From Ruania rhizosphaerae (lineage in GTDB: Bacteria > Actinomycetota > Actinomycetes > Actinomycetales > Beutenbergiaceae): a DNA stretch of 64,000 bases. A program made the translations under genes and the position numbers. Below the pieces are notes generated by a model that saw nothing but the letters and a program-made list of their open reading frames with translations, searched no databases and was not told the DNA's origin. The stretch covers positions 1 through 64,000 of the forward strand of contig NZ_VSMB01000003.1 of the NCBI RefSeq assembly GCF_009805705.1, given 5' to 3'. Below, one piece after another: positions 13,952 through 50,636 of the stretch. Positions within the stretch are counted from its first letter, which is position 1, and the number at the start of each line of letters is the position of its first letter.

Positions 13952-14041
13952 GACTTCACCGTAGGCAACGCAATTCTCGGAATCTCGTGGCTCAGTTGGC
14001 TGTTCTTCCAGAATCCTACGATTGGCGCGTAGGGTCAGAGC

Positions 14042-31629: not shown

Positions 31630-31630
31630 C

Positions 31631-32413
31631 TCATGCGAGCCAGCTTCTGGCACGCTCCAGCGCCAGGTCCAGCTCGGGCAGGTCGGGCTCCCATGCCTTC
31701 TCCCACTCCAGGGAGAACCACACGTCGTCCGCGGCCGGCCCCAGCGCGGAACGGATCTCCCGCAGGGGCACCTCCCCCTCGCCGGGGAGGCACAGCCCGG
31801 CCGACGAGGACCAGTCCTTGATCTGGACGTAGTCGAGGAGCCCGCCGAGTGCGGCTGCGGTGTCGGCGGGCTCCTCCCCGGCGCGCCACGGGTGCAGCAC
31901 GTCCCAGATCACGCCGACCTCGTCGCGGTCCGGCGCCGGTATCCGGTCGATGATCCGGGCGACATCCGCGCCACGGGGGTGCGAATCGTGCGTCTCGAGC
32001 AGCACGCGGCAGCCACGGCGAGTCGCCTCGGTCGCGATTGCCGCGAGAGTGCGCGATCCGCGCGCGTCTGAGGAGTCGACGTCCGCATCGCCGCCCGGGA
32101 ACACTCGCATCCCGGTCGCGCCCACCGCCCGGGTGTGCTCGAACAGCGGCAGTGCCTCCCCGGGCACGTCGCCCTTGGCGCAGACGCGCACCCGCGTGCA
32201 CAGTGCCAGGATGGTGAGGCCTTCCTCGCGCAGGATCGATCCGATGTGCCGAGATCGCTCCAGACCGGCCGCCGGATCGACGATCTCACCCGGCCCGCAT
32301 CGCAGCTCCAGCCCGGTGATCCCGAACGCGCGACACCGAGTGATCACCCGCTCCAGGGAGTCCCCGGGGCAGCCCAGCGTGGAATAGGCGAGTCTCGGGC
32401 CCCGTGCACTCAC
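31631..32413 (-). CDS. TIM-barrel sugar phosphate isomerase/epimerase family (AP endonuclease 2-like)
   Basis: The protein has 260 residues. LAYSTLGCPGDSLERVITRC, GITGLELRCGPGEI, VLLETHDSHP (metal Glu/His), VGVIWDVLHPWRAGE (Asp, His) and FSLEWEKAW (Glu) form the usual metal ligand set. Members are epimerases, isomerases or keto-glycoside eliminases. It overlaps the PL8 lyase stop by ATGA, suggesting that it handles the lyase product. Confidence 0.85.
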   Translation of the reverse strand: MSARGPRLAYSTLGCPGDSLERVITRCRAFGITGLELRCGPGEIVDPAAGLERSRHIGSILREEGLTILALCTRVRVCAKGDVPGEALPLFEHTRAVGATGMRVFPGGDADVDSSDARGSRTLAAIATEATRRGCRVLLETHDSHPRGADVARIIDRIPAPDRDEVGVIWDVLHPWRAGEEPADTAAALGGLLDYVQIKDWSSSAGLCLPGEGEVPLREIRSALGPAADDVWFSLEWEKAWEPDLPELDLALERARSWLA

Positions 32414-34752
32414 GTCTCGAGCACGATGTGGTGCTGGCGCACGGGTGAGACGCGGGGAACCTCGATCCGCAGCACCCCGGCGGCCAGGGTGACGTCGGCG
32501 CCGTCGGAATCCGTGACCGCGAGGTAGGGGCCGGCGGGCATCGTCACCACGAGGGAGGACCCGCCGGTGCCGTGCGCTCCCACGCCCACCACCCGTTCGC
32601 CGTCGTGATCATCCACCACGACGGCGCCCGGCCCGTCCAGGCTCACCTCACCCACCGTCCCGCTCGCCCAGGCGATCACCGCCCGGGTCGAACCGCCGAA
32701 GGCGACCCCTTGGTGATCGGCGGTGTTGGCGAGCACCTGGTAGCCAGGGGCGGCTGCCGCCGCGGCAGTCTCGGCCGAGGTGGCGCCGGGCAACAGCGCG
32801 TACTCGTAGGCGCGCCCCGGCGGGTGCGCGCCGTGCCAGATCCACATCGTGACGAAGCGGCGCAGGATGGTCCCCGTGGAGCCGCCGGCATTGATCTGCG
32901 ACCAGGATCCCGAGCGCTGTTCGCGGAGCATCTTCAGGACGGTGCCGGGGCCGAACAGGTATCCGCCGACGTCCTCCAGGTGCGCCCAGGAGGGGGAGTG
33001 GATGGTGGCCGAGGTATCACCGGGGATCGGCTCGGCACCGTCCACCTCGAGCACGTTCTCACCCCAGTAGTGCAGGTTCCGGTTCTCGACGACGGTCTCC
33101 ACCAGGTTGCCGCTGCCGGATCGGATGTCGGCCCCGAGAGCCACGATCATGCCGCCGACGGCGAACCAGGCCTTGCGAGCGCGCAGGCCTGTGCCGCCGG
33201 GGCCCCGCAGATCCTGGCCGAAGGCGAGCGCGGCGCGGTCACCGCCGGGCCAGGCCACGGCACCGCCGGTCCACTCACCGTCGGGCAGTCCGGCGCCCCA
33301 TTGGCCGCCGACGCCGTCGGGCAGGGGAGTCTGGTCGGCGGTGGTGCCCGGCAGCCGGTACGGATCGACGGTGGGCCAGTACCCGTCGTCGAAGTGGGCG
33401 GTGTCCTCGGTGTAGAGGGACGTCATCCCCGACCCGGTGTGGAACCCGCGCTCGTTCTCACCGTTGCCGCACTCGTACCAGGCGATACGCCGGCTCGATC
33501 CGGAGATCGCCACGGCCCAGCCCGGGCGGCGCACGACGGCCCGATCCATCCCCCCGAAGAGTGACACCCCGTCCGGCTCGGGCAGGGGTGGCGCGCTGTG
33601 GGCCTCGAGCGCACGAATCGCCGAGACGCGGGGCACGGTCTGCAGTGGCACGGCGCCGTCCAGCACCGGCAGCCAGGTGCGAGCCCGGCCGAGCCAGGCG
33701 TCGGCCGTGGCCGCCGGCACGGCGCCGCTGAGGAGCACCAGGGCTTCCAGCACGTCCGCGGCGATCGTCCGGCTGCGGGAGGCGGCGCGGCTGACGGCGC
33801 GGCCGCGGACCGAGTCCAGGACCTGTCCGCGGTAGACGACCGGCAGGATGCTCGCCTCCACCAAGGCGTAGAAGTCCTCTTCGGGTCCGCCCGTCTCAGG
33901 CTCGATCAGCGCGAACATCTGCGCCAGCCGCAGCACCAGGACCACCCCGTAGGAGCCGGTGTAGGGGACCGTGGTGTGTTGCAGGTAGGAGCCGTCGGCG
34001 TGGAAGCCGTCGCCACTGGCGACGATCTGCCAGGCATCCACCAGCCCAGCACGTGCGTGCTCGAGCTTGGCCGTCTCGGCGTCCAGCAGCGCGCGCACGA
34101 TCACCGCCGAGCACAGATCAACCCGGTTGGCGCCGGTGGAGGGCTTACGGCCCGAGCCGGCGGGGAGGACGAACCACGGATCGGGGACGTAGTAGTCGAT
34201 CGCCGCGCACTGATCGGCGATGTCCTGCGGCGTGAGCTCGGCGTACACGAGCACGAGGGTGTTGCCCAGGGCGCGCGGGACCCCGATCTCCCAGGTCCAC
34301 CAGTTGCCGTACTCGGGGGTGAAGGGGTTGTAGCCGTGGGTGAAGCCCGTGCGGAGCCCCTCGAGGATGTCGTCGAGCACATCGGAGTCCTCGTACTGGC
34401 TCGTTCCCGGCGTGGCCCAGGCGAGCGCCAGGGACTGGATCCGCCGGTAGGTGCTGAGCACGCCCGCGTTGTCATCGAGCGGCGCATCGGTGAACACCTG
34501 GGTACGGGTGGGCGAGGTGTCGATCAGCGCGAGGGCCGCCGCCGCCGCGCTCTCGATGGCATCGATGGGATCCTGGTAGCGCGGATCGCTGGTGTCCAGG
34601 GTGGCCCGGCCGGTCAGGATGTCCGCCCAGCGAGCACGCAGTGCCGGGTAGTCCAGTGGGGCGGCAGCTGCCGGAAGGCTGCTGAAGGTGCCGGTGATCA
34701 GGGCAGCCGCGGGAATGGCGGCCAGGGTCTTCAGGGCGGTGCGACGGCGCAC
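32410..34752 (-). CDS. Polysaccharide lyase family 8 (hyaluronate/chondroitin/xanthan lyase type)
   Basis: The protein has 780 residues and a twin-arginine signal (MRRRTALKTLAAIPAAALI). The alpha-toroid holds NWWTWEIGVPRALGN at about 150-164. The catalytic Asn lies in GANRVDL (about 209), His in SYLQHTTVPYTGSYG (about 259) and Tyr nine residues on (about 268), matching the Asn/His/Tyr set of PL8. The beta-sandwich half follows (GMDRAVVRRPGWAVA, HWF-type loops). PL8 enzymes cut uronic-acid glycans by beta-elimination. Exported enzyme plus importer gives extracellular depolymerisation, then uptake. Which polymer is attacked is not visible. Confidence 0.9.
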   Translation of the reverse strand: MRRRTALKTLAAIPAAALITGTFSSLPAAAAPLDYPALRARWADILTGRATLDTSDPRYQDPIDAIESAAAAALALIDTSPTRTQVFTDAPLDDNAGVLSTYRRIQSLALAWATPGTSQYEDSDVLDDILEGLRTGFTHGYNPFTPEYGNWWTWEIGVPRALGNTLVLVYAELTPQDIADQCAAIDYYVPDPWFVLPAGSGRKPSTGANRVDLCSAVIVRALLDAETAKLEHARAGLVDAWQIVASGDGFHADGSYLQHTTVPYTGSYGVVLVLRLAQMFALIEPETGGPEEDFYALVEASILPVVYRGQVLDSVRGRAVSRAASRSRTIAADVLEALVLLSGAVPAATADAWLGRARTWLPVLDGAVPLQTVPRVSAIRALEAHSAPPLPEPDGVSLFGGMDRAVVRRPGWAVAISGSSRRIAWYECGNGENERGFHTGSGMTSLYTEDTAHFDDGYWPTVDPYRLPGTTADQTPLPDGVGGQWGAGLPDGEWTGGAVAWPGGDRAALAFGQDLRGPGGTGLRARKAWFAVGGMIVALGADIRSGSGNLVETVVENRNLHYWGENVLEVDGAEPIPGDTSATIHSPSWAHLEDVGGYLFGPGTVLKMLREQRSGSWSQINAGGSTGTILRRFVTMWIWHGAHPPGRAYEYALLPGATSAETAAAAAAPGYQVLANTADHQGVAFGGSTRAVIAWASGTVGEVSLDGPGAVVVDDHDGERVVGVGAHGTGGSSLVVTMPAGPYLAVTDSDGADVTLAAGVLRIEVPRVSPVRQHHIVLET

Positions 34753-34817
34753 GTCTCCTCCTTGAGATCGGTGAATGGCCAGGCTCTATGGCCGGGAGGG
34801 CATGAATCCAGCACTGG

Positions 34818-35870
34818 TCAGGCCGAGACCGAGAGGGAGTGCGGGTCGACCTCGAAGTGCAGGTGCTCGCCTCGCAGCGCCCGACCGACCTCCTGGGCGG
34901 CCGAATCGCCCAGACGGCGCAGGTCGGCCCCGTAGGCACCGGCCACGTGCGGGGTCAGCCAGAGATCCGGCGCACCCCACAGCTCGCTCTCGGGCGCAGG
35001 GACGAGCGGCTCGGTCACGTCGAGCACGGCGCGCAGCCGGCCCCGGCGAAGTTCGGCAGCCAGCGCCTCGGTGTCGAGCACGGATCCACGCGCGGTGTTG
35101 ATCACGGTCGCGCCATCCCGCAGCAGCGCCAGGGTGTGAGCATCCACCAGGTGGTGTGTGCTCGGCAGCGCCGGCACATGCAGGGAGAGCACATCGCTGC
35201 GGCGGGCCAGGTCCTCCAGACTCACCAGTTCCGCCCCCAGGGCGGTGGCATCCGCGGTGCTGAGGTAGGGGTCCGAGATCAGCACCTGCACGTCCAGGGT
35301 CTGTAGCAGGCGAGCCGTCACCCGGCCCACCCGGGAGGCCCCGAGCAGCCCGACGGTGCGGCCGTAGACCCCCTCGCCGGCGAACTCGCGGTAGACGTCC
35401 ACCCGACGGCGCGTGCGCTGGTACAGCTGCGTGGCCCGCTGCACGGACTTGAGGCTGAGAATGACCATCGCCAGGGTGTACTCGGCCACCGCGACCGCGT
35501 TGTTCTCCGCCTGGGAGGAGACCCGGATCCCGCGCTCCCAGAGTGCCGGGCTCTCGATCTTGCGGATGCTGCCGCCCGTGTGCACGACGTACCGGAGGTG
35601 AGGCAGCAGATCGAGCTCCTCCGCCGTCAGGGGCGGGCTGCCCCAGCCGGTCACCACCACCTCGGTGCGCTCGCGCTGCCCCGGCCCGGCTGCGGTCAGG
35701 CCCGCTGTCGCTCCCGGGTGCCACACCTGCGCCAGCGGTGCCACCGATCGCCACGCCTGCCTGCCGAAGAACTGCCGGCTCAGTGACGGCTCCATGAGCA
35801 CGGCGACCGCGGGAGTGGTGTCCTCATCGAGCGCGCCGGCGGGTGCGCTCACCCCGTCACTTGAGGGCAC
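34818..35870 (-). CDS. D-2-hydroxyacid dehydrogenase family protein
   Basis: The protein has 350 residues. The NAD fold motif GLLGASRVGRVTARLLQ differs slightly from GxGxxG: GASRVG has Ala-Ser in the turn. Catalytic Arg is in INTARGSVLD, Glu in DVTEPLVP and His in LTPHVAGA. It would reduce or oxidise a 2-keto/2-hydroxy acid. It overlaps the MalG-type permease by 14 bp, so it belongs to the PL8 operon, perhaps acting on keto-acids from unsaturated uronates. Confidence 0.88.
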   Translation of the reverse strand: MPSSDGVSAPAGALDEDTTPAVAVLMEPSLSRQFFGRQAWRSVAPLAQVWHPGATAGLTAAGPGQRERTEVVVTGWGSPPLTAEELDLLPHLRYVVHTGGSIRKIESPALWERGIRVSSQAENNAVAVAEYTLAMVILSLKSVQRATQLYQRTRRRVDVYREFAGEGVYGRTVGLLGASRVGRVTARLLQTLDVQVLISDPYLSTADATALGAELVSLEDLARRSDVLSLHVPALPSTHHLVDAHTLALLRDGATVINTARGSVLDTEALAAELRRGRLRAVLDVTEPLVPAPESELWGAPDLWLTPHVAGAYGADLRRLGDSAAQEVGRALRGEHLHFEVDPHSLSVSA

Positions 35871-36804
35871 CCGAGGTCATCCCTTCCATGATGCGTCCGC
35901 CCGCCCAGAGGTAGAGGACGATCATCGGATAGATCAGGATCACCAGGCCGGCGAACAGGCCGCCCCAGTCGGCGTTGTACTGCATCGTGCCGTACAGGCG
36001 TAGCAGTGCCGCCGGCAGCGTCTGTTTGGCCGGATCGTCCAGCAGCACCAGCACCAGCAGTGTCTCGTTCCACATGTTCAGCAGGTTCAGCACCAGGGCA
36101 GACTTGATCGCCGGCCAGGCCACGGGCACCACCACGGACCAGAACGCCCGTGCCGGGCTGGCGCCGTCGAGCTCGGCCGCCTCGGTCAATGACTCCGGCA
36201 GCCCTGCGAACGCGGCGGTCAGCAGGAAGACGCTGAAAGCCAGCGAGGTGCCGATGTAGACGATCACCAGCGTGATCCGGTCGTCCCACCACCCGAAGGC
36301 GATCTCGACGGCGAAGCGGGAGACGAGCGTCTTGGCCACGAACAACGGCACGATGATCGCCTGGATCGGCAGCGCCACACAGAGGGCGACGTAGGTGGTC
36401 AGTGCTCGCACGGCGGGGCGCCTGCTGCGAGCGATGACGTACGCGGCCGGGGCGGCGAGCGCGATGGTGATCACGCCGGAGAAGCCGACGATCAGCACCG
36501 AGTTGAGCGCGGCACCGCCGAAGCCGGAGACCGTCCACGCCGTCGCGAAGTTCTCCCACTGCGGGGAGGAGGGCAGGCCGAACGGCGCCGTCAGGACGTC
36601 CCGGTCGGTCTTGAGGGACTGCACCCCCACCCAGATCGCCATGGCGAGGTTGAAGGCCACCCACAGCCACAGCAGCACGCGGACCGTGTTCGGGATGACG
36701 AGATCCTCGACGACGATACGAGCCGATCGCCGGCGGGACCGGACCGGTGCCGGCGAGGGCGGGGAGGACGTACGTTCACGGGTCAGAGTCGAGCTCATCG
36801 TCAT
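35857..36804 (-). CDS. CUT1 sugar ABC transporter permease (MalG type)
   Basis: The protein has 315 residues with a 35-residue basic N-terminal tail and six membrane helices. The EAA loop is TEAAELDGASPARAFWSVVVP. It overlaps the MalF-type gene by ATGA. It belongs to the PL8 importer. Confidence 0.92.
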   Translation of the reverse strand: MTMSSTLTRERTSSPPSPAPVRSRRRSARIVVEDLVIPNTVRVLLWLWVAFNLAMAIWVGVQSLKTDRDVLTAPFGLPSSPQWENFATAWTVSGFGGAALNSVLIVGFSGVITIALAAPAAYVIARSRRPAVRALTTYVALCVALPIQAIIVPLFVAKTLVSRFAVEIAFGWWDDRITLVIVYIGTSLAFSVFLLTAAFAGLPESLTEAAELDGASPARAFWSVVVPVAWPAIKSALVLNLLNMWNETLLVLVLLDDPAKQTLPAALLRLYGTMQYNADWGGLFAGLVILIYPMIVLYLWAGGRIMEGMTSGALK

Positions 36805-37757
36805 GCCACCTCCACGGCGTCACGTCGTAGCAGGCGGCGGGCGAGCACCACGAAGACCGCGGTGAACACGAAGATGGCGATACCGATCGCCGCGGCGGCC
36901 CCGAGCTGCGGGGTGCCGTCCCGACCGCCGGTGGTGGCCAGGAACTGCTGCACCGCGGCCGTGCGCGCCTGCAGCGGCGGAGCGCCCTGGGTGCCGACGA
37001 AGGCGATCACGATCTCGAAGGTCTTCATCCCGCTGATCAGCCACAGCACCACGGCCACACTCGCCGCCTCCCAGCTCAGCGGCAGGGTGATCATCCAGAA
37101 CTGCTGCCAGCGGGTGGCGCCGGCCAGCTGGGCCTCCTCGTACAGGTAGGGCGGGATCTGATCCACACCGGTGGCGACGATCGCGAGGTAGTACCCGCTC
37201 ATGCTCCAGATCAGCCCGAGCACGATCATCTGGAAGACCATGTCCGGTGCGAGCCACGCCCGCTGGAATTCCTCCAGACCGATCGACCCCAGCAGATCGT
37301 TCACCGCTCCGTTGGGGTTGAGCAGGAAGCCCAGCGCCACCCCGATGGCGATCGGGGAGACGATCATCGGGACGAAGACCACAGATCGGGCGAACGCCGC
37401 TCCCCGCATCTGCCGTAACCCGATGAGCATCAGGAACACGATCGCGAAGATCGCCACGCCGCCTCCGAGCACCAGCACGAAGGTGTTGAGCATCGCGGTG
37501 CGGAAGGTGTCCGAGTACCACAGGGCGGCGTAGTTGCGCAGACCTGCGGCCGACATCGGGCTACCGAGGCCGCGCCAATCGGTGAAGGACAGGAACACGG
37601 TGAACAGGGACGGCACGGCGACCACGAGGGTCATCGTGGTGATCGCGGGCGCGGCGAAGCGCCCGAAGAGCGTGTCCGGCCCACGCCGCCGCGGGCGTTC
37701 CCCACGGCGGCGCAGGACGGGCAGGTCCGTACGCGGGACTGGTCCGGTGGACGACAC
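36801..37757 (-). CDS. CUT1 sugar ABC transporter permease (MalF type)
   Basis: The protein has 318 residues. GTG at 37757 is chosen because CAGGAG precedes it and because the longer frame reads through the binding-protein gene. The EAA loop is YEEAQLAGATRWQQFWMITLP. Six helices are evident. Confidence 0.9.
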   Translation of the reverse strand: MSSTGPVPRTDLPVLRRRGERPRRRGPDTLFGRFAAPAITTMTLVVAVPSLFTVFLSFTDWRGLGSPMSAAGLRNYAALWYSDTFRTAMLNTFVLVLGGGVAIFAIVFLMLIGLRQMRGAAFARSVVFVPMIVSPIAIGVALGFLLNPNGAVNDLLGSIGLEEFQRAWLAPDMVFQMIVLGLIWSMSGYYLAIVATGVDQIPPYLYEEAQLAGATRWQQFWMITLPLSWEAASVAVVLWLISGMKTFEIVIAFVGTQGAPPLQARTAAVQQFLATTGGRDGTPQLGAAAAIGIAIFVFTAVFVVLARRLLRRDAVEVA

Positions 37758-37770
37758 TGATGCTCCTGTC

Positions 37771-39090
37771 TCAGTCCTGGGTACGCAGGTAGTTCTCGGT
37801 CTGCTCCTGGCCCTCGGCGATGAACTCCTCCGCGGTGATCGATCCGGAGAACAGCTGATCGGACAGGGGCAGGAGCACGTCGTTCCACCAGGTCGGGTGC
37901 ATCGCGCCGGCGAAGTCATGCGAACCGGTGGTGACCTCCGCCGTCTGGATCGCGTCAGCGAGCGGCTGCAGCGGTTCGGGTGCGGGGACCTCGGAGTGCG
38001 CGGACATGAACCCGGCCTCGGTGGCCCACAGCTCCTGGTACTCACGCTGGGCGGCGAAGGCGAGGAAGTCGGTGGCCGGTTCGAGGTTCTCGCTGTCGGC
38101 GTTCACGGCCAGGCCGCTCACGGTCAGTTCGACAGTGGGGTAGCCCTCCGGAGTCATCGGGAACAGGAAGGTGGAGGCCTCGAAGCCCTCGGCCATCTGA
38201 TCCTGCACCTCGCCACCCATGTAGCTGCCGTTGAGCATGAACGAGACCTCGTCGTTGGCCCACGCCAGCTGGGCGGCGGGGAAGGTGCTGCCCATGTAGC
38301 CCTCCTGCAGGTAGCCGGCATCGACGATCGTCTCGACCATCTGCGCGGACTCGAGGACGTGCTCGGCGTCCCAGGCAGCGACGTCCTCGGCGAGGCCGCG
38401 CAGCGACCCGGGGCCGCCGGTGCGCATCATCGACTGGTAGAACCAGAACACGTTGTACCCGGAGACCGAGCCGTCCGCGCCGATGGGGACCAGCCCCTCG
38501 GACTGCTGCTCGGCGAGCAGGGAGGTGAACTGCTCCCAGGTCTGCGGCGGCGACTCGGCGATGTCGGGGAACCGTGCGGAGTTGAACCAGATGCCGTTGG
38601 AGGTGACGTACGTCGGCAGCAGCGCTACGCCGTCGTCCGTGGAGGCGGCGTCGACCACGCTGGGGGCGAGGGTGTCGGCCACGGTACCTGCGCCGTCGGG
38701 AAGCTCACGCTCCAGCAGTGGGTCCATATCGGCGAGGAAGCCGCGCTCGTGAAAGTCGGCAAGGTTGCGGCTACCGGCGTCGAACAGGTCCGGCCCGGAG
38801 CCGGTGCCCAGGGCGTTGATCAGGTTCGTCGTCACCTCGCGCCCCAGGTAGCGCACCTCGATGCTGGTGCCGGTGCTCTCCTCGTAGTCGGCGGCGATCC
38901 GGTCGAAGATCTCCTGCTGCGGCTCGCCCATGTTCCAGGCGGCCCAATAGGTGAGCGTGACGTCCTCGGTCTCGGTGCCCGCCTCGGCCTCGTCCTGGAA
39001 CTGGGTGCCGCAGGCGCTGAGCATCAGGGCAGCACCTCCAGCGGCCAGCAGCCGCCGGGTGCGGTTGCTGCGGGTGGTTGTCGAAGGCAT
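37771..39090 (-). CDS. Sugar ABC transporter substrate-binding lipoprotein of the PL8 operon
   Basis: The protein has 439 residues with lipobox LMLSAC (Cys near residue 27). LTYWAAWNMGEPQQEIFDRI starts the mature domain. It is the first gene of the run SBP-MalF-MalG-dehydrogenase-PL8-isomerase, so it probably binds unsaturated oligosaccharides released by the lyase. The regulator gene ends 99 bp upstream on the same strand. Confidence 0.92.
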   Translation of the reverse strand: MPSTTTRSNRTRRLLAAGGAALMLSACGTQFQDEAEAGTETEDVTLTYWAAWNMGEPQQEIFDRIAADYEESTGTSIEVRYLGREVTTNLINALGTGSGPDLFDAGSRNLADFHERGFLADMDPLLERELPDGAGTVADTLAPSVVDAASTDDGVALLPTYVTSNGIWFNSARFPDIAESPPQTWEQFTSLLAEQQSEGLVPIGADGSVSGYNVFWFYQSMMRTGGPGSLRGLAEDVAAWDAEHVLESAQMVETIVDAGYLQEGYMGSTFPAAQLAWANDEVSFMLNGSYMGGEVQDQMAEGFEASTFLFPMTPEGYPTVELTVSGLAVNADSENLEPATDFLAFAAQREYQELWATEAGFMSAHSEVPAPEPLQPLADAIQTAEVTTGSHDFAGAMHPTWWNDVLLPLSDQLFSGSITAEEFIAEGQEQTENYLRTQD

Positions 39091-39189
39091 GTGGTGTGCC
39101 CTTTCTCTTCTCGGGGGACGCCCGTCGTTGGGCGATGGGATGACTAGACCGCGGGCGGTTGGAATGAATACAGACTCAATGGGGATGCA

Positions 39190-42637: not shown

Positions 42638-42690
42638 GGGTCGAACTTAGGGGGAAGTGAGGGAATGAATCAGGAACCACTGAGGCGGCA

Positions 42691-42719
42691 CCCGGCGAGT
42701 GGAGTCGCCACTCGCCGGG
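42691..42719 (-). terminator. Intra-operon hairpin before the FAD oxidoreductase gene
   Basis: CCCGGCGAGTGG and CCACTCGCCGGG are perfect 12-bp arms around five bases, located 9 bp after the upstream oxidoreductase stop. No T run follows. It may lower expression of the FAD and regulator genes. Confidence 0.65.
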
Positions 42720-42727
42720 CGCCGCGC

Positions 42728-43819
42728 TCAGAACTGCGGAACCTCCACCGGCCGGCCGCCCTGCATCGCCGACTCGTGCGCTCGCAGACCCACGCTGGTC
42801 CAGTTCGCCGCGGTGTCGACGTCGACCGAGGGGGCCCGGTTCTCGACGATGCTGCGCACGAACTCGTGGGCGAGGTGCGGGTGGGAGCCCCCGTGGCCGC
42901 CGCCCTGTGCGAAGGAGAGGTGGCCGTTCTCGGCGTCGTAGACACCGCGGGTGGTGAACGACTGGATCTCCTGCGGGAGCAGGTGGGCGTAGTCGGGCAC
43001 CGTGATGCGCTCGGCCTTCTCTCCGTGGAAGAGCACGGGTTGGCCACCCTCGGTCTGGGTCCACTCAAAGGAGGTCTCCGAGGCGTAGACGTCGAAGCTC
43101 TCCACGTACTCGCGCGCGGTGGAGAACAGCGACCGCGACACCTCCGCCGCCAGGTCGCTGCCGGCCAGGGTGATGTGCGCGGACTCCACCGCGAACGGTG
43201 ACCCGTACCGGCCCTGCAGATCCTCCGGGATCACTCCCGATCCCACGCAGGAGACCGTCTCGGCCCGCTTGCCGGCCAGGGCCAGCAGCGGTGAGACCGC
43301 ATGGGTGGCATAGTGCATCGGCGGCAACCCCTCCCAGTACTCCGGCCAGCCGCTCATGTCCTGATGGTGAGCACCTCGCAGGAACTGCAGCCGGCCCAGC
43401 TGGCCGGTCTCCAGCAGGTGCTGCACGTGCAGGAACTCCCGCGAGTAGACGACCGTCTCCATCATCATGTAGGTCCGGCCACTGGCCCGGGCCGCTGCGA
43501 CGATGCGCGCACAGTCCTCGATGGAGGTGGCCATCGGCACGGTGCACGCCACGTGCTTACCCGCCTCCAGTGCCGCGACGCTCTGGTCGGCGTGCAGCGG
43601 GATGGGCGTGTTGATGTGCACCGCATCGATGTCCGGATCCGTCAGCAACTCCTCGTAGGAGGTGTAGCGCCGCTCGATACCGAAGCGGTCACCGGTCGCA
43701 TCCAGGTTGCCGCGATCCCGCTGGCAGATCGCCACGAGCTCGGCGTCCGGATGTGCCTGGTAGATGGGCACGAATTCGGCCCCGAAGCCGAGCCCCACCA
43801 GGGCCACATTCACCGTCAT
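42728..43819 (-). CDS. Gfo/Idh/MocA family oxidoreductase, EKP lysine replaced
   Basis: The protein has 363 residues. VNVALVGLGFGAEFVPIYQA is the NAD fold, and the C-terminal half has WEGLPPMHYATHAVSPLLAL, the substrate side. The motif normally CEKP reads KHVACTVPMATS, so the conserved Lys is Val. This is a known minority pattern, and reaction chemistry may differ, for example elimination instead of plain dehydrogenation. It is cotranscribed with the SDR. Confidence 0.85.
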   Translation of the reverse strand: MTVNVALVGLGFGAEFVPIYQAHPDAELVAICQRDRGNLDATGDRFGIERRYTSYEELLTDPDIDAVHINTPIPLHADQSVAALEAGKHVACTVPMATSIEDCARIVAAARASGRTYMMMETVVYSREFLHVQHLLETGQLGRLQFLRGAHHQDMSGWPEYWEGLPPMHYATHAVSPLLALAGKRAETVSCVGSGVIPEDLQGRYGSPFAVESAHITLAGSDLAAEVSRSLFSTAREYVESFDVYASETSFEWTQTEGGQPVLFHGEKAERITVPDYAHLLPQEIQSFTTRGVYDAENGHLSFAQGGGHGGSHPHLAHEFVRSIVENRAPSVDVDTAANWTSVGLRAHESAMQGGRPVEVPQF

Positions 43820-43856
43820 GATCGTCCCTCCTGTGTCCTGACAGTCCCCGCCCGGC

Positions 43857-44642
43857 TCACCCGAGCCGTCCGGAGAGCGCGGTCAGACCCCCATCGACGG
43901 CCAGGCAGGCACCCGTGATGTAGGACGCGTGGTCGCTGGCGAGGAAGGCGATCGCGTGGCCGATCTCCTCTGGGCGACCCTGACGGCGTTGGATACCGGG
44001 CCCGCCCTCGTGGGGAGTCATCACCGCCAGGTCGATCTCCCTACCCGCTTCCGCGGCACGGTTCTTGTGGAAGTCGGTCAGGGTGGGCCCGGGCAGGATG
44101 GCGTTCACGCGAACGCCGGCGTCGGCGTGGTCGCACGCCATCGAGCGGGTCAGGGCCAGCACGCCGGCCTTGGTGGCGTCGTACTGAGCCATTCCGGCGC
44201 GTCCCGTGACTCCGTTGGCGGAGGAGACGCTCACCACCGAGCCGGCACGACCCGCCATCAGCGGGATGATGTGCTTGCAGGTTAGTCCCACGCCGATGAG
44301 GTTGACGTCGGTGATCCACCGCCAGGAGTCGGCGGTGGCCTCGGTGACCGGGCCCCACACCCGCGCCGCAGCGTTGTTGACCAGGATGTCCACGCCGCCG
44401 AAGCGCGAGGCGCACAGCTCCGCCAGCGCGATGTTGGCCTCCTCGGAGGCGATGTCGAGTTGGATCGACGCCGCATCCGGGGCTCCGAGTGCGATGGCCT
44501 CCTTGCTCGCCTCCTCGGCGAGCTGTCCGTCGAGATCGGCGACCACCACGGTGGCCCCCTCGGCGGCCAGGATGTTGACGGTCTGCCGGCCGATGCCGGC
44601 GCCACCGCCGGTGACGACGGCGACCTTGTTGCTGAAACGCAT
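43857..44642 (-). CDS. Short-chain dehydrogenase/reductase
   Basis: The protein has 261 residues. VAVVTGGGAGIGRQTV is the cofactor motif, ILVNNAA follows, and the catalytic Ser and Tyr-x-x-x-Lys are in VSVSSANG and QYDATKAG. VVVADLD suggests NAD preference. ATG at 44642 begins the fold. It is placed between the binding protein and an Idh-type gene. Confidence 0.92.
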   Translation of the reverse strand: MRFSNKVAVVTGGGAGIGRQTVNILAAEGATVVVADLDGQLAEEASKEAIALGAPDAASIQLDIASEEANIALAELCASRFGGVDILVNNAAARVWGPVTEATADSWRWITDVNLIGVGLTCKHIIPLMAGRAGSVVSVSSANGVTGRAGMAQYDATKAGVLALTRSMACDHADAGVRVNAILPGPTLTDFHKNRAAEAGREIDLAVMTPHEGGPGIQRRQGRPEEIGHAIAFLASDHASYITGACLAVDGGLTALSGRLG

Positions 44643-44670
44643 GGTTCTCCTTGTGTTCGGGGTAGGGGGA

Positions 44671-45990
44671 TCAGGCCAGGAGTGAGGCGGCCTGATCGAA
44701 GAAGCTGTCCACCGCCGTCGGGATGTCGGTCTGCTCGAAGCGCAGTTCCTCGGCGGTGCGGGAGAGCAGCTGGTAGACCTCCCGGCCGGCACGCGGTGTC
44801 AGCGCATCCATCGGGTCGCCGATCTCGGTGATGAGGGCCAGGTACTCCGAGGGCGTGAGGAGGCCGTCCTCACCGGAGTCCTCCTGCACCAGCTCGGCCG
44901 AGGAGGGGCTCGGCGGCACGCCCCGGGAGTTGCCGATGACCTCGACGGCCTCGGGGTCGTTGACCCAGAACTGCATGAACCGGGCGCACTCCATCGGGTA
45001 GGCCGTCCCCGCCCAGGCCGACATGAACAGGTTCGGGCGGACGAAGTTGGCCCGCTTGCTCCCGCCCTCGGTGTCGGGCATCGGCAGTGCCTGGATCTGC
45101 GAGGGAGTCAGGGCACGCACACCCGTGAGCTCGCTGCTGGTGGTGAAGTACAGCGGGGCCACGCCGGTGATGATCGGGCTGGTCTCGTGGCCGGTGTCCT
45201 CGGCGGAGACGTTCGGCGGGACGCAGGCGCCACTGGCGCGCATGTCAGCCCACCACTGCCAGAACTCGCGCAGGTCGTCCTTGCTGAAGCCCAGCGTCGT
45301 GGGCGAGGCCCCGGTGTCGAAGAAGGTCAGGCCCCGGCCGCGAACCCACGGCTCGAAGACCTCATACATCCCGCTGCCGTCCTTGATGCCCCACAGCTCC
45401 TCACCGGAGGCCTCACGGATGTTGTTCGAGAGCTCGGAGACGTCGTCCCAGGTCCATGTGTCGCCCTCGGGGAGCTCCAGGCCGAGGTCCTGGATCACCT
45501 CGCGGTCGGCGAGGATGGTGAAGGCGTCGGTGCTCATGGGCACACCGGCGCGGATGCCGTCGATGACCCCGTAGTCCTGCAGGTCGGCGTTCCAGTCGCT
45601 GATCTCGATGGGGTCGCCGATGAACTCCTCGAGATCGAGCAGCGCGCCGCGTTCGGCGTAGTCGACGATCATCTGGTTCGACATCTGGAAGGCGTCGGCA
45701 CCGTTGTCGCCGGCGATCTGGGTGGCCATCCGGTCCCAGAAGTCGTCCCAGGAGGCGTTCTCCGGGGTGATGGTGACGTTCTCGTGCCGACTGTTGTAGA
45801 GCTCGATCGCCTCGTTGGTGGTGCGGTTCATCTCCTCGTGACCCCACCAGGCGAATCGCATGTCCTTGGGGGCGTCGTCGTCCTCGACGCCGTTGCTGCC
45901 GCCGCCTTGGCCACAGGCGGTGGCGGTGCCGAGGGTGGCCGCGCCGAGAGCGAGGCCGGAGGTGCGCAGGAAGGTCCTTCTGCTGACCAT
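44671..45990 (-). CDS. Sugar ABC transporter substrate-binding protein with twin-arginine signal
   Basis: The protein has 439 residues. The start VSRRTFLRTSGLALGAATLG is a Tat signal that ends in a lipobox (TATAC). DMRFAWWGHEEMNRTTNEAI opens the mature domain. It serves the permeases encoded upstream at 48823-50636, from which it is separated by four enzyme and membrane genes. Confidence 0.9.
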   Translation of the reverse strand: MVSRRTFLRTSGLALGAATLGTATACGQGGGSNGVEDDDAPKDMRFAWWGHEEMNRTTNEAIELYNSRHENVTITPENASWDDFWDRMATQIAGDNGADAFQMSNQMIVDYAERGALLDLEEFIGDPIEISDWNADLQDYGVIDGIRAGVPMSTDAFTILADREVIQDLGLELPEGDTWTWDDVSELSNNIREASGEELWGIKDGSGMYEVFEPWVRGRGLTFFDTGASPTTLGFSKDDLREFWQWWADMRASGACVPPNVSAEDTGHETSPIITGVAPLYFTTSSELTGVRALTPSQIQALPMPDTEGGSKRANFVRPNLFMSAWAGTAYPMECARFMQFWVNDPEAVEVIGNSRGVPPSPSSAELVQEDSGEDGLLTPSEYLALITEIGDPMDALTPRAGREVYQLLSRTAEELRFEQTDIPTAVDSFFDQAASLLA

Positions 45991-46056
45991 GATGTGTCCT
46001 TTCGTGAAACGGCCGCGTCGTCGCAACCGGGTCTGGGGTGGGAGGGTCAGGTCGTA

Positions 46057-46110
46057 GGGATGGGTCGGGTTGAGGGGATGGGTCAGGCTGTCGGTATGGG
46101 TCAGGCCGTC
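46057..46110. repeat. Three 18-bp tandem repeats at an operon junction
   Basis: The unit is GGGATGGGTCAGGCTGTC with a few differences at 46057-46074, 46075-46092 and 46093-46110, and a degenerate unit at 46040-46056. The last unit contains the stop codon of the Gfo/Idh/MocA gene. There are no spacers, so it is not CRISPR. Replication slippage here could alter the C-terminus. Confidence 0.7.
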
Positions 46111-47138
46111 GGGACGGGATCGGGCCGCACGGCCGGGAGAGCGCACGCCGTCAGGACGTCCTCGATCAGGCGCAGGGTCTCGGCGCCGGACCGGGCGTCC
46201 ACCGGGGAGGGGGCGACGCCGCCGACCGCGTCGATGAAGGCGCTCATGCCCCGTCGCATCAGGTCGGCGTTCTCGGCCGACATGCAGGCGCGGATCGCCT
46301 CCGGGTCATCCATCGGGACGGGCGAGGTCACCTCCGGTACGTGGCCGCCGCTGCCCAGGGAGGTGCGCGCCGGCGTGACCCTGAAGCGCCAGGTGGCGGC
46401 ATCGCCGAAGAGCTCACCGCCCCAGCCGATGTTCCAGGGGTCGGCCTCGTGGGCGGTGAAGTCGATCGTCACCACGGTGTCGGCGCAGCGCATCGTCACG
46501 GCCAGGGCGTCCTCGCCGGGACTCGGCGTCCCGCTCCGGCGGACCCGGGTGGCGCGGATCTCGTGTGGTTCACCCAGGAGCAACCGCAGGACGTCCACCA
46601 GGTGGCACCCGGCCTCCATGAACGGCGTCACCACATTGGTCGCGTCGCCGAACCAGTGGGCCATGCTCGTCCAGGCCTGATGCGGGATCGCCGCGTGGAA
46701 GCGCGCGAGGTGAAGATCGCCCAGCGCACCCTCCTCGAGTGCCTGGCGGGTGCGCACGACGGAGTCGGAGTACCGCATGAAGAAGCCCATCTGCGTGAGC
46801 ACACCGGCCTGCGCCGCGCGATCGGCCACCTGGGCCAGCCGCGCCGAGGTGCGAGCTCCGGTCTTCTCGATGAACACCGGCAGACCGGCATCGATCGCAA
46901 TCTCCGCGAAGTCGGGCGCCTCGTCGTTGCGCCCGTCCACCACCACCGCGCCGGCGCCGTGCAGTGCCTCTTGGGCCGTACCGGCATCCTCCGCCGCGTA
47001 CCTCTGAGCAAAGGCCCGGGCGGCGTCGGCATCGGGGTCGTACACACGGGTGATCCGCGTGCGGGGGTCCTCATGAGCCGCGACGGCCCATGCGTGAGCG
47101 TGCGGGTGGGTCACTCCCAGGAATGCGACGTCAAGCAT
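46101..47138 (-). CDS. Gfo/Idh/MocA family oxidoreductase
   Basis: The protein has 345 residues. DVAFLGVTHPHAHAWAVAAH is an atypical first loop with His in place of the Gly-rich turn. GLPVFIEKTGART keeps the catalytic-type Lys, and FMEAGCHLVDVLRLLLGEP is the standard substrate helix. It overlaps the YesL-type gene by 8 bp. Confidence 0.85.
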   Translation of the reverse strand: MLDVAFLGVTHPHAHAWAVAAHEDPRTRITRVYDPDADAARAFAQRYAAEDAGTAQEALHGAGAVVVDGRNDEAPDFAEIAIDAGLPVFIEKTGARTSARLAQVADRAAQAGVLTQMGFFMRYSDSVVRTRQALEEGALGDLHLARFHAAIPHQAWTSMAHWFGDATNVVTPFMEAGCHLVDVLRLLLGEPHEIRATRVRRSGTPSPGEDALAVTMRCADTVVTIDFTAHEADPWNIGWGGELFGDAATWRFRVTPARTSLGSGGHVPEVTSPVPMDDPEAIRACMSAENADLMRRGMSAFIDAVGGVAPSPVDARSGAETLRLIEDVLTACALPAVRPDPVPTA

Positions 47139-47793
47139 TGCTACAGGTCACCTCTGCAGGGTTGGAGGGAACGGTGGGCCGGGGGTCGGCCGCCCGGCCC
47201 AGGTAGAGGGCCAGCCCGGGGCCGAAGATCACGCCCACGAGCGGGAGGTGGATCACGAGGGTCACGGTGAGCGCCGCCCCCAGCAGCACCGCGAGGTGCC
47301 ATGGACCGAAGCGCGTGGCCCGGCTCGTGGCCCGGCTCACGAGCTCGGCACGGGAGACCCCGGGGGCCTCAGCCAGTTCGTGCACGCACGCGGCCAGCCA
47401 CCACAGCGCGATCAGCAGTGCCGAGACGTTGACGGCGTAGAAGACCCCCGCCGTCAGGGTGGGCTGCCCGGCCAAGAACGCCAGGTTCAGCACGCTGACC
47501 GCCACCAGCACCACGCCTGCCGGTCCGAGGAACCAGGTGGCGGGTAGTGCGCGGCGCACGTCTGTGAGCAGCTCCCGCCAGAGCCCGCCGGCTTGGCCTC
47601 GTGAGGCCTTCAGCAGCAGCCGCGAACCGGCTCCGAAGGCGGCGACGGCGGAAACCAGGGGCAGGGCGAGCACCATCGTGACGAGGCTGAGCCCGGCAAG
47701 CCGGCTCACCGTCCGCAGCGCGTCCATCACCCGTTCGGCCAGGGGTGTGGGCTCAGCCGGCGGCCGGCGGAAGCCTGCCGGACGGCCGAGCAT
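47131..47793 (-). CDS. DUF624/YesL-like membrane protein
   Basis: The protein has 220 residues with four to five hydrophobic helices (SLVTMVLALPLVSAVAAF, WFLGPAGVVLVAVSVLNLAF and others). LPLVSAVAAFGAGSRLL and the GLWRELLTDVRRALPAT segment are as in YesL-type proteins, which often sit in rhamnogalacturonan and other glycan operons. ATG at 47793 is likely. A longer start at 47859 would overlap the upstream gene. Confidence 0.7.
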   Translation of the reverse strand: MLGRPAGFRRPPAEPTPLAERVMDALRTVSRLAGLSLVTMVLALPLVSAVAAFGAGSRLLLKASRGQAGGLWRELLTDVRRALPATWFLGPAGVVLVAVSVLNLAFLAGQPTLTAGVFYAVNVSALLIALWWLAACVHELAEAPGVSRAELVSRATSRATRFGPWHLAVLLGAALTVTLVIHLPLVGVIFGPGLALYLGRAADPRPTVPSNPAEVTCSNA

Positions 47794-47809
47794 CTCCGCG
47801 AGGGTCTTC

Positions 47810-48826
47810 TCACGCCAACTCAACGGAGCGCCCTTCCGCAATGGACCGGTACGCCGCATCCAGCGTCCGCATCGACTGCAGCGAGTCCTCTACCGTCACC
47901 AGCGGGCGCGCCTTCCCGGCGGCACAGTCGAGGGCGTGGGCGATGGATCGCGTGACCGACCGGTCGAACCAGTCCTCTTCCACCGCGATGACCTCATCAC
48001 CGCCGTGACTGTCCCGTCGGCGCAGCACGTTGTCCCGGCCGGTCTCGATCGAGAGGCGGTTCTGCTCGGAGGTGAAGATCTCCTTGCGCCAGTCCCACCC
48101 CGGGGCTCCCCAGAATCCGACCAGCGTCATCATCGTGCCCGAGTCGAACTCGACCACCATGGTGGCGGTGTCCTCTCCCTTGTCGGGGTTGCCGGCAGCG
48201 AGCTGGTTCGCGGTGGCGGTCACCCGGCGCGATGGTCCAAACCAGAAGTGCGCCAGGTCGATCAGGTGCGAACCTGACTCGAACAGGCACCCGCCTCCGG
48301 TCATCGCGGGATTTCCACGCCAGTGGTGGGGGGAGCGCAGGGCAGCGAGGTGGTCACCGAGAATCTCGATGTGGGCCACCAAGCCGGTTCCCCAGAGCTC
48401 CTCAGCCAGCCCGTCGCGGACACGCTCGTGCACCGGGTCGAAGCGCTGGTGGTACTTCACCATCAGGCTGCCGGTCGAGGCCTGATCGGCCTCGGCCACG
48501 CTGAGTGCTTCCTCCAGACCCAGCGCCATGGGCTTCTCGCAGAGGACGAAACGCCCTGCATCGAGCACCTGGATCGCTTGAGGTGCGTGCAACGCCACCG
48601 GCGTGACGAGGTCGACCAGCTGGACATCGTCGTCGGCGAGGACGGTGCCCAGGTCGGAGGCGATCCGCGGTACCCCCCACCGCTCGGCCGCAGCGTGAGC
48701 AGCCTCGCGGTCGGGGTCGCTGATCCACGCGACGTCGGCCCGGTCGAGCTGGGCGTAGGCGGCGAGATGGGACTGTGCGAAGGAGCCCGCCCCGACGACG
48801 GCCACCCGCACCCGCTCGGCGCTCAC
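47810..48826 (-). CDS. Gfo/Idh/MocA family oxidoreductase
   Basis: The protein has 338 residues. VRVAVVGAGSFAQSHLAAYA is the NAD motif, RFVLCEKPMALGLEEA the canonical EKP, and LFESGSHLIDLAHFWFGPSR the substrate helix. It overlaps the MalG-type gene by ATGA and is the most standard of the three paralogues. Confidence 0.9.
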   Translation of the reverse strand: MSAERVRVAVVGAGSFAQSHLAAYAQLDRADVAWISDPDREAAHAAAERWGVPRIASDLGTVLADDDVQLVDLVTPVALHAPQAIQVLDAGRFVLCEKPMALGLEEALSVAEADQASTGSLMVKYHQRFDPVHERVRDGLAEELWGTGLVAHIEILGDHLAALRSPHHWRGNPAMTGGGCLFESGSHLIDLAHFWFGPSRRVTATANQLAAGNPDKGEDTATMVVEFDSGTMMTLVGFWGAPGWDWRKEIFTSEQNRLSIETGRDNVLRRRDSHGGDEVIAVEEDWFDRSVTRSIAHALDCAAGKARPLVTVEDSLQSMRTLDAAYRSIAEGRSVELA

Positions 48827-49680
48827 TTCAGCCCCGTCGTGGCGATGCCACGGATCAGGTACCGCTGCCCGAAGACGAAGAAGATGAAAATGGGGACGAG
48901 GGACAGGACGGACATGGCGAACAGCGCTCCCCAGTCGGTGCCGCCAAGGTCGACGAAGAGTCGGATCGCAAGCGGCACGGTGAACAGATCGTTGTCGGTC
49001 AGGAAGACCAGCGGACGGAAGAAGTCATTCCAGGTCCAGATGAAGGAGAAGATGGCGGTGGTAGCCAGGGCGGGGACCACCAGCGGCAGCATGATCCGCC
49101 AGTAGATCTGGAACGGCCCGCACCCGTCGATGGAGGCTGCCTCGTCAATGTCACGGGGAATTCCGCGCATGAACTGCACCATCAAGAAGATGAAGAAGGG
49201 GTCGGTCGCGAAGAATTTTGGGACTGTCAGTGGCAGGAAGGTGTTCAGCCATCCGAGCTCAGAGAACAGGATGTACTGCGGCACGATCGTGACGTGCTCG
49301 GGGAGCATGATCGTCACGAGCATGATTCCCATGAAGAGAGCCTTGAGGCGGAACCTCATCCGTGCGAAAGCGAACGCCGTCAGGGAACAAGCGATGAGGT
49401 TTCCCAGAATCACGGACCCAGTGACGATGAAGCTGTTCCGGAAGTACGTCGCGAAGGAGTTCTGCTGGGCATCCCAGCCGCGGGCGTAATTGTCGAGGGT
49501 CGCATCGGTGATGGCGAGTCCAGCGCTGGTGAAGATGTCCTCGTTATCACGCAGCGAACTGACCAGCATCCACAGCAGGGGATACAGCATCCCGACGGCG
49601 AGTGCGATCAACAGCACGTGCATCGCGACGCGACGAACCGGCGGCTTGGTGCGGGTAGTGACTGCGGTCTCGGCGCTCAT
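48823..49680 (-). CDS. CUT1 sugar ABC transporter permease (MalG type)
   Basis: The protein has 285 residues with six helices. The EAA loop is DEAASIDGCGPFQIYWRIMLP and the C-terminus YLIRGIATTGLK is typical. It is coupled by ATGA to both neighbours. Confidence 0.93.
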   Translation of the reverse strand: MSAETAVTTRTKPPVRRVAMHVLLIALAVGMLYPLLWMLVSSLRDNEDIFTSAGLAITDATLDNYARGWDAQQNSFATYFRNSFIVTGSVILGNLIACSLTAFAFARMRFRLKALFMGIMLVTIMLPEHVTIVPQYILFSELGWLNTFLPLTVPKFFATDPFFIFLMVQFMRGIPRDIDEAASIDGCGPFQIYWRIMLPLVVPALATTAIFSFIWTWNDFFRPLVFLTDNDLFTVPLAIRLFVDLGGTDWGALFAMSVLSLVPIFIFFVFGQRYLIRGIATTGLK

Positions 49681-50636
49681 CGGTCACCATCCGCGTAGAA
49701 GACCCAGTATCGGGAAAGCAGGAAGTTGATCCCGGTGATGGCGGCGATGACCACGAGGAGAACCCAGGCCATGGCGGAGGCGTATCCCATGTCGAAGTTC
49801 GCGAATCCTTGCTGGTAGAGGTACAGCGTGTAGAACAGGGTCGAATCCGCAGGACCGCCCTGACCGTTGCTGACGATGTAGGCGGGAACGAACGCTTGAA
49901 AGGCGTAGATCGTCTGCAGGATGAAGTTGAAGAACACGATCGGCGTAAGGAGAGGGATCGTGATGCTGAGGAACCGTCGCACATGCCCGGCACCATCGAC
50001 TTCGGCCGCCTCGTAGTAGGAACGCGGAATCTGGCGCAGGCCAGCGAGGAAAATGATCATCGGCGAGCCGAAGGTCCACACGTTCAGCGCGATGATGGTC
50101 ATCAAGGCGGTATCCGGGTTGCCGACCCAGCTGTGTGTGGTGTCTATACCGATGGCGCCGAGTGCGGCGTTCACGAGGCCGTCGCTGCCGAAAACGGTCC
50201 GCCACAGCACAGCGACTGCGACGCTGGTTCCGATGAGCGAGGGCAAGTAGAAAACCGCGCGGTAGATGGCGATTCCGGCGATCGCTCGGTCCAGCAGCAT
50301 CGCCAGCGCGAGCGCGAAGACCAACTGCAACGGCACCGAGACCAGCACGTAGGTGGCAGTGACCACCACCGAACTGAGGTAGCGCGGATCGCTCGTGAAC
50401 ATCCGCACGAAGTTGTCCACCCCGATGAAGTTCGGGTCCTGGAGGAAGTTGTAGTCGGTCATGGACAGGTACAGCGAGGCCGCCATCGGCCCCATCACGA
50501 ACACGAGCAGTCCGATCAGCCACGGGCTGAGGAAAAGATAGGGCGCGAGTGCTCGCCGTCTATGTGAGTGTGGTGGTGAGGGTTGTCGCAGCGCCGGTGC
50601 CGGCATGCGCCGCCGCTCCTCGGTGAGTGAGCTCAT
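49677..50636 (-). CDS. CUT1 sugar ABC transporter permease (MalF type)
   Basis: The protein has 319 residues. APYLFLSPWLIGLLVFVMGP begins the helices and the EAA loop is YEAAEVDGAGHVRRFLSITIP. It is the first gene of the long oxidoreductase-rich operon and reads away from the LacI-AraC regulator. Confidence 0.93.
   Translation of the reverse strand: MSSLTEERRRMPAPALRQPSPPHSHRRRALAPYLFLSPWLIGLLVFVMGPMAASLYLSMTDYNFLQDPNFIGVDNFVRMFTSDPRYLSSVVVTATYVLVSVPLQLVFALALAMLLDRAIAGIAIYRAVFYLPSLIGTSVAVAVLWRTVFGSDGLVNAALGAIGIDTTHSWVGNPDTALMTIIALNVWTFGSPMIIFLAGLRQIPRSYYEAAEVDGAGHVRRFLSITIPLLTPIVFFNFILQTIYAFQAFVPAYIVSNGQGGPADSTLFYTLYLYQQGFANFDMGYASAMAWVLLVVIAAITGINFLLSRYWVFYADGDR

Follow-up and report, generated by a model that had tools for sequence, protein, structure and literature searches.

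Can the products of a polysaccharide lyase be taken apart by redox chemistry where no glycoside hydrolase (GH) is encoded beside it? The question is raised by positions 31631-50636 of a 64,000-base stretch of Ruania rhizosphaerae DNA (the window, G000:C33:1-64000 of a 4.43-Mb genome in 43 contigs), which a first-pass annotation had read as a single 19-kb glycan locus whose sugars, after cutting by a family 8 polysaccharide lyase (PL8), are released by oxidation and elimination instead of hydrolysis. We assigned gene classes by Pfam on the open reading frames (ORFs) of the window, with NCBIfam and PDB profile comparisons added, and surveyed relatives in 297 genomes of the order, including a family subset (n = 24). 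Pfam confirmed the gene list of that annotation, namely PL8, two CUT1 importer sets, three Gfo/Idh/MocA proteins, a short-chain dehydrogenase/reductase (SDR), a flavin adenine dinucleotide (FAD) oxidoreductase, a D-2-hydroxyacid dehydrogenase (HADH) and a triosephosphate isomerase (TIM) barrel protein, with all genes of 31631-50636 on the minus strand. Our results give a modest preference to a different arrangement, in which two neighbouring and independent catabolic operons share a 20.5-kb variable block, operon B encoding a lyase-based uronate route and operon C serving a separate sugar.

Two probable operons within a variable block

Operon B is ordered FAD-GntR-solute-binding protein (SBP)-permease-permease-HADH-PL8-TIM on a single strand, and operon C is ordered permC2-permC1-Gfo3-small membrane protein-Gfo2-SBP-SDR-Gfo1 with a divergent AraC-type regulator. 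We infer a split point between the two at about 42.69 kb from a hairpin, from where a shared motif lies, from the distinct regulators and importers, and from relatives that keep one half and lack the other; each operon would then form one transcript. The 96 bases from 42640 to 42735 that hold the hairpin fold at -50.3 kcal/mol, compared with -29.5 +/- 3.35 for shuffled sequences (z = -6.21), and none of 200 shuffles reached so low an energy. Our terminator scan demands a T-run, which this hairpin does not have, and it is therefore not among the terminator-like sites of the window, whose number is at chance level (3 against 2.9 expected). Within operon B the FAD stop overlaps the GntR start codon (ATGCCTGA), and the first 4 bp of the TIM-barrel gene are also the last 4 bp of the PL8 gene. 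The window contains two exact matches to ATTCATTCC where 0.06 are expected, one preceding FAD and the other the operon B solute-binding protein (SBPb), and between 31500 and 52100 there are only three sites with two or fewer mismatches to CTGNATTCATTCC, which lie before FAD, SBPb and PL8 and are all on the coding strand; the region upstream of operon C has none. In Occultella gossypii the motif is found with no mismatches before GntR and with two before SBPb. It is in this placement, and not in the number of sites, that the motif evidence lies. Across whole genomes, sites with at most one mismatch number five in our genome (none for a control pattern) and two in Occultella (one for the control); our five comprise two in operon B, two within reading frames (L219 and L220) and one other (L222), and the exact Occultella site on contig C4, between two frames that are unrelated by eye, is probably due to chance.

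Additional support comes from relatives. The block (31516-52030) is missing at this site in the same-genus genome G017, where the matches to window positions 31515 and 52031 stand 120 bases apart, and no mobile-element genes were found among the Pfam-scanned block proteins. Operon C aligns to the same-genus genomes G015 and G019 at 87-89% DNA identity, starting at window positions 42688 and 42724 on the left and ending at 52027 and 52029 on the right. At E <= 1e-60, Gfo1 occurs at no fewer than 26 places, its own included, in at least 20 of the 297 genomes; this count and those given below for FAD, HADH and TIM are lower bounds from searches in which 3, 6, 7 or 8 candidates were scored per genome. 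The 13 Gfo1 loci that we fetched cover 14 of the 25 places outside the window. Five hold all eight operon C genes with the AraC-type regulator (L076 with L131, L114, L115, L116 and L117), three hold a variant unit of AraC, Gfo1, SBP, permeases and SDR (L118-L120), four retain Gfo1 without the unit (L121-L124), and the remaining one (L132) is cut by the edge of the fetched stretch; none of the 13 carries PL8, judged at 1e-10. The top match of our transporter scan, at 74% identity, was Occultella gossypii N2-46 (Ruaniaceae in the NCBI taxonomy), and within 21 kb this genome carries GntR-SBP-permB2-permB1-HADH and, on the opposite strand, PL8, at 53-74% identity, with no FAD, TIM, Gfo or SDR orthologues in that operon. 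At least 28 relatives of FAD at 51-54% identity lie outside the window, and PL8 was found in none of the 19 FAD-centred loci fetched.

These observations bear directly on whether 31.6-50.6 kb could instead encode a single pathway under common control, with the PL8 products as substrates of the Gfo and SDR enzymes. Such a pathway would fit the adjacency and shared strand of the genes, their joint presence in the variable block, and a motif site with three mismatches at 50701, in the gap between permC2 and the AraC gene, yet the hairpin, the separate regulators and importers, the absence of a motif site with two or fewer mismatches before operon C and the conservation of operon C without PL8 all argue to the contrary, and we consider it very unlikely. 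On the grounds set out above we divide the single locus of the first-pass annotation in two. Since operon C appears independent, by the hairpin and by its conservation without PL8, its Gfo and SDR enzymes probably act apart from the lyase.

Membership of FAD in operon C was considered and rejected, as the operon C alignment stops before FAD in both G015 and G019; in G015 a different FAD gene, 50% identical, adjoins operon C on the other strand. The permease tail remnant at the left edge of the block shares 79% identity over 24 residues with a permease tail beside operon C in the same-genus locus L114. Two block genes had previously gone unlisted, a GntR-LacI regulator (39190) and a small, weakly MusI-like membrane protein (47131). 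Third-position GC is consistent with coding for the block genes, and the window gave no match in Rfam and tRNA scans and no promoter-like site. All features are collected in Table 1.

Table 1. Features of the variable block, in window coordinates.
Feature	Coordinates	Strand	Assignment and remarks
CUT1 permease tail remnant (28 codons + stop)	31547..31630	-	Directly behind TIM-barrel gene, left edge of variable block
Operon B TIM barrel, xylose-isomerase-like	31631..32413	-	Pfam AP_endonuc_2 PF01261, 69 bits
Operon B PL8, chondroitin AC lyase-like	32410..34752	-	Pfam Lyase_8_N/Lyase_8/Lyase_8_C
Motif CTGGATTCATGCC near HADH end, upstream of PL8	34799..34811	-	1 mismatch to CTGNATTCATTCC
Operon B HADH	34818..35870	-	Pfam 2-Hacid_dh_C, 150 bits
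Operon B CUT1 permease permB1	35857..36804	-	Pfam BPD_transp_1; 74% identity in Occultella gossypii
Operon B CUT1 permease permB2, start approximate (open frame to 38045)	36801..37799	-	BPD_transp_1; 73% in Occultella
Operon B CUT1 solute-binding protein SBPb	37771..39090	-	Pfam
Motif CTGTATTCATTCC upstream of SBPb	39161..39173	-	
Operon B GntR regulator with LacI-type sensor	39190..40314	-	Pfam GntR + Peripla_BP_3
Operon B FAD oxidoreductase PF12831	40307..42637	-	Pfam FAD_oxidored, 313.9 bits
Motif ATTCATTCC upstream of FAD	42662..42670	-	2 mismatches to CTGNATTCATTCC
Hairpin starting in Gfo1 stop codon	42680..42731	-	Likely operon C terminator
Operon C Gfo1, Gfo/Idh/MocA fold	42728..43819	-	Pfam
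Operon C SDR	43857..44642	-	Conserved start MRFSNK or MRFTNK; listed ORF to 44792
Operon C CUT1 solute-binding protein SBPc, start uncertain	44671..46146	-	Pfam
Operon C Gfo2, Gfo/Idh/MocA with EKT	46101..47138	-	Pfam
Operon C small membrane protein, weakly MusI-like	47131..47859	-	NCBIfam MusI_fam 22 bits, cut-off 160; no Pfam match
Operon C Gfo3, Gfo/Idh/MocA with EKP	47810..48826	-	Pfam
Operon C CUT1 permease permC1	48823..49680	-	Pfam
Operon C CUT1 permease permC2, first gene	49677..50636	-	Pfam
AraC/XylR-type regulator, divergent from operon C	50847..52025	+	Pfam Peripla_BP_3 + HTH_18 + PBP1_XylR

Operon B and the fate of the lyase products

The operon B lyase is over the cut-offs of all three PL8 domain models, and its best PDB match is chondroitin AC lyase 1rw9 at 611 bits, compared with 409 for the best hyaluronate lyase and 335 for the best xanthan lyase. 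By alignment and motif position the catalytic Asn, His, Tyr and Arg are present as N209, H259, Y268 and R322, the counterparts of N183, H233, Y242 and R296 in ArthroAC, and by eye the N-terminus is twin-arginine-like. The NCBIfam model nearest to SBPb is NgcE (N-acetylglucosamine/diacetylchitobiose), at 112.6 bits against a cut-off of 399.65. We propose that exported PL8 would cut a glucuronate-containing, glycosaminoglycan-like chain into disaccharides with a 4,5-unsaturated uronate, and that the CUT1 importer of operon B would take these up. Cleavage of the disaccharide link would release the uronate, which would then open to give a 4-deoxy-5-keto acid; HADH could reduce this alpha-keto acid and TIM might isomerise or dehydrate, the pair either replacing KduI/KduD or working beside them.

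The recurrence of HADH with TIM hints at such an assimilation of lyase-derived uronate. HADH homologues occupy at least 92 places in at least 63 of the 297 genomes and TIM homologues at least 19 places in at least 17; at 11 of the 19 TIM places an HADH homologue lies within 10 kb (within 60 bases at seven of them), and protein clustering reveals the two as neighbours at two further loci, L178 and L182. In a 16-sequence alignment E140, D171, Q197, E236 and E238 of TIM are invariant, and the best PDB match of its profile is AsbF (62 bits), a 3-dehydroshikimate dehydratase, followed by Art22, a xylose isomerase and IolI, matches that are consistent with isomerase or eliminase chemistry alike. Moreover, a protein cluster represented by DUF2264 (a single representative was tested) is found in 6 of the 20 fetched HADH/TIM loci, and in our own genome a second HADH homologue lies beside DUF2264, CUT1, DUF624 and a GntR homologue (L214, G000:C11:768000-787999). 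We found no literature on DUF2264. It probably corresponds to GH154; enzymes of GH154 are now proposed to act as glucuronate dehydratases (PMC12269599), and if the correspondence is right the uronate reading would be strengthened. Three KDPG (2-keto-3-deoxy-6-phosphogluconate)-aldolase-family matches and one protein of the KduI family PF04962, which also includes IolB, are present in the genome (the latter at C11:551073-551888, 259 bits), and no KduI-family gene was found in operon B. Near HADH homologues there are also two large open frames with no Pfam match at 1e-5, L192:7463-10324 (953 aa) and L176:1305-3473 (722 aa), which may be misread frames or else polysaccharide enzymes that went unrecognised.

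A hydroxypyruvate reductase/isomerase-like role for the HADH and TIM pair, on three-carbon fragments or oxidised sugar acids instead of the deoxy-keto-uronate, would fit the fold families of both proteins, which are linked to those activities, and the members of NAD (nicotinamide adenine dinucleotide)-epimerase-type and MR_MLE sugar-acid dehydratase-type clusters at L201 and L203, two PL8 loci from the same genus, point to oxidative sugar-acid routes. We hold this role to be rather unlikely, with HADH matching 22 NCBIfam models, GhrA and GhrB included, and reaching the cut-off of none, and TIM matching no NCBIfam model at all.

If operon B provides a uronate route, which enzyme breaks the disaccharide link? 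The earlier statement that the stretch holds no glycoside hydrolase agrees with our Pfam results, in which GH models at E <= 0.001 match no protein of 31631-50636 and PF07470 (GH88/GH105) finds nothing in the block, leaving it without the GH88 gene of PL8/GH88 loci; the statement needs qualifying for two GH4 genes elsewhere in the window and for the GH109-like marks of Gfo1 described below. The first GH4 gene (12554-14686, -) scores 561.6 against the NCBIfam alpha-galactosidase model, above the cut-off of 486, with a match that begins at residue 254, so that its true start may be internal, and the second (23499-24845, +) is below that cut-off. We think it most likely that the link is broken by a hydrolase encoded elsewhere. 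The only candidate recognised is the single PF07470 protein of the genome (contig C40), whose best PDB matches are of GH105 type (62 bits); of its ten PDB matches one, 5noa (48 bits), carries a family 88 name, and it stays below the cut-off of every NCBIfam model. PL8, counted at E <= 0.001, is present in 17 of the 24 family genomes, and 6 of these 17 (our own included) have a PF07470 match over cut-off, as do 3 of the other 7, with no association between the two (Fisher p 1). The remaining 11 PL8-bearing genomes have no over-cut-off PF07470 match, two of them having weak ones below it.

Redox cleavage within operon B is the second option. Here FAD would oxidise the imported unsaturated disaccharide to a keto-glycoside from which TIM would eliminate the sugar, with no hydrolase required. 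Broad-specificity keto-glycoside pathways were reportedly described in a 2024 Nature paper. Operon B itself lacks a hydrolase, the 11 genomes just mentioned lack an over-cut-off PF07470 match, and AsbF is the best match of the TIM profile. Sugar-isomerase-like enzymes of the levoglucosan pathway carry out elimination and hydration, a route that has been likened to the GH4 mechanism (PMC7676230), and C-deglycosylation enzymes have TIM-barrel alpha subunits (PMC8563793). Furthermore, in G017, a genome without a PF07470 match, a PL8 gene is preceded by SBP, Gfo/Idh/MocA and PF12831 genes (L203, G017:C1:64500-84499) and followed by permeases, NAD-epimerase-type, MR_MLE dehydratase-type and AXE1 genes and a second PL8; the G015 locus L201 has a sulfatase with members of the same epimerase and MR_MLE clusters. 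In seven genomes, picked after two such loci had already been seen, PF12831 lies within 2 kb of two PL8 genes against 0.34 expected (P 0.047), and within 10 kb of 4 of the 28 (3 loci) against 1.08 expected (P 0.096); given the choice of genomes, we set this association aside as at most suggestive. Against redox cleavage stand also the absence of PL8 from every fetched FAD-centred locus, the Occultella operon, which does without FAD and TIM, and the independence of PF07470 from PL8, by which its absence may reflect other PL8 products. Taken together we regard this option as unlikely. The FAD profile search matched only FAD-binding N-termini, the FAD C-terminus has a weak F5_F8_type_C_2 match (24.3 bits, below the 27.8 cut-off), and nothing relevant turned up in the literature on PF12831. 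A distant PL8-type gene also occurs at L127 (G000:C33:255000-274999), close to a pair of frames related to each other (cluster 48) and glutamine-synthetase-like by eye, and counterparts of similar frame length are present in many family genomes.

The redox release proposed in the first-pass annotation survives only in a narrower form: pooling the Gfo and SDR enzymes with the lyase is unlikely, and what is left is operon B, with FAD, HADH and TIM and no hydrolase. A co-regulated hydrolase elsewhere, which that annotation had named as evidence that would contradict it, was not found with the operon B motif. The pairing of HADH with TIM is no less compatible with uronate being assimilated after cleavage than with redox cleavage.

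Several observations weigh against our preferred reading of two operons with a lyase-based uronate route in B. Protein activities throughout, like the operon boundaries, are assigned from sequence. The motif was derived from the FAD and SBPb sites, so that its independent instances are the PL8 site and the Occultella sites only; the whole 64 kb contains four sites with two or fewer mismatches against 1.93 expected, a number reached by 13 of 100 shuffles; Occultella has no motif before its own PL8, yet has one two-mismatch site behind HADH; and the site at 50701 stands upstream of operon C. TIM is absent from the Occultella operon, 8 of the 19 TIM places have no listed HADH homologue within 10 kb, and the TIM homologues of L175 and L184 have GH2-, GH3- and GH36-type genes nearby, so that TIM is not tied to lyases. 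If the PF04962 protein is KduI, a KduI-replacing role for HADH and TIM is unneeded. Finally, the GH105-like protein on C40 is not near any motif site with one or no mismatch, and may serve another polymer.

Operon C and the GH109-like marks of Gfo1

Operon C might provide for uptake and redox catabolism of a different substrate, a small glycoside or cyclitol-like sugar. Gfo2 and Gfo3 look like working dehydrogenases, retaining EKT and EKP, respectively, in the window and in five relatives, each together with a conserved ExGxH. In Gfo1 the EKP site reads TVP, TIP or AVP in 12 of 12 sequences (our own and 11 relatives), with the lysine gone, and all 12 have an HGGSHPH loop near the C-terminus, four of them with the full GGHGG. 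GH109 enzymes also lack the EKP lysine, and their acid-base residue is reportedly located in a conserved GGHGG loop, as stated in the title of a paper. For comparison, [GAS]HGG is also present in 5 of 32 other Gfo-type segments, and an EK pattern, counted anywhere in the segment and not only at the motif site, occurs in 4 of 16 Gfo1-like segments. The NAD-binding domain of Gfo1 matches PF01408 (87 bits), and its profile finds DgpA (7xr9) best in the PDB at 83 bits and the GH109 enzyme 2ixa at 77 bits, the latter covering no more than profile positions 50-152, within the N-terminal half; Pfam finds no GH109 domain in it. We therefore treat the GH109 likeness as a lead and not as membership, with Gfo1 a possible GH109-like NAD-dependent glycosidase of operon C. 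No Gfo protein reaches the NCBIfam cut-offs for levoglucosan dehydrogenase or glycoside 3-dehydrogenase, and by this measure no recognised glycoside 3-dehydrogenase shares an operon with the candidate eliminase, the Gfo genes being in the other operon. The joint proposition that many PL8-bearing Ruaniaceae-type actinobacteria use a hydrolase-free route (FAD oxidation, TIM elimination, HADH reduction) and that Gfo1 founds a GH109-like clade strikes us as improbable, a shade more so than redox cleavage in operon B by itself.

Comparison with known systems

The most useful new facts are in our view the split into two operons, the absence of GH88/GH105-type matches over cut-off from most PL8-bearing relatives, the pairing of HADH with TIM and the likeness of Gfo1 to GH109 in two marks, and they carry a warning that adjacent operons on the same strand are not to be read as one pathway. 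The levoglucosan pathway LgdA-LgdB1-LgdB2-LgdC, as set out in PMC7676230 and PMC10066097, is similar in its Gfo/Idh/MocA and sugar-isomerase-like enzymes and its sugar ABC (ATP-binding cassette) transporter neighbours, and differs from our block, where the Gfo enzymes and TIM are in separate operons. C-glycoside deglycosylation by DgpA/CGD (PMC8563793) resembles it in that DgpA is the best match of Gfo1 and in the TIM fold of the CGD alpha subunits; however, no gene like the CGD beta subunit is among the Pfam results for the block, and TIM and Gfo1 belong to different operons. With the NAD-dependent GH109 N-acetylgalactosaminidases Gfo1 shares the Gfo fold, the loss of the EKP lysine (replaced in Gfo1 by valine or isoleucine) and an HGG loop near the C-terminus, and it is set apart by its partial match to 2ixa and by the missing Pfam domain. 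Lyase-based use of uronate polysaccharides is usually read as a polysaccharide lyase with GH88/GH105 and KduI/KduD, and PL8/GH88 loci use phosphotransferase system (PTS) or SusCD importers, whereas operon B uses an ABC importer. Compared with the PL8/GH88 glycosaminoglycan loci of PMC9067506 and PMC8222515, namely the Bacteroides chondroitin sulfate polysaccharide utilisation locus (CS-PUL) and the Vibrio alginolyticus hyaluronan locus, operon B has in common PL8 with importer or regulator genes, and its genome has the lower-pathway families (KDPG aldolase and PF04962), but it is without GH88, of which PF07470 gives no clear case in the genome, and has HADH, the TIM barrel and the FAD oxidoreductase instead. 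The lack of an over-cut-off GH88/GH105 match in most PL8-bearing genomes of the family, together with the HADH-TIM pair, thus offers a small gene set for testing the missing step of uronate catabolism.

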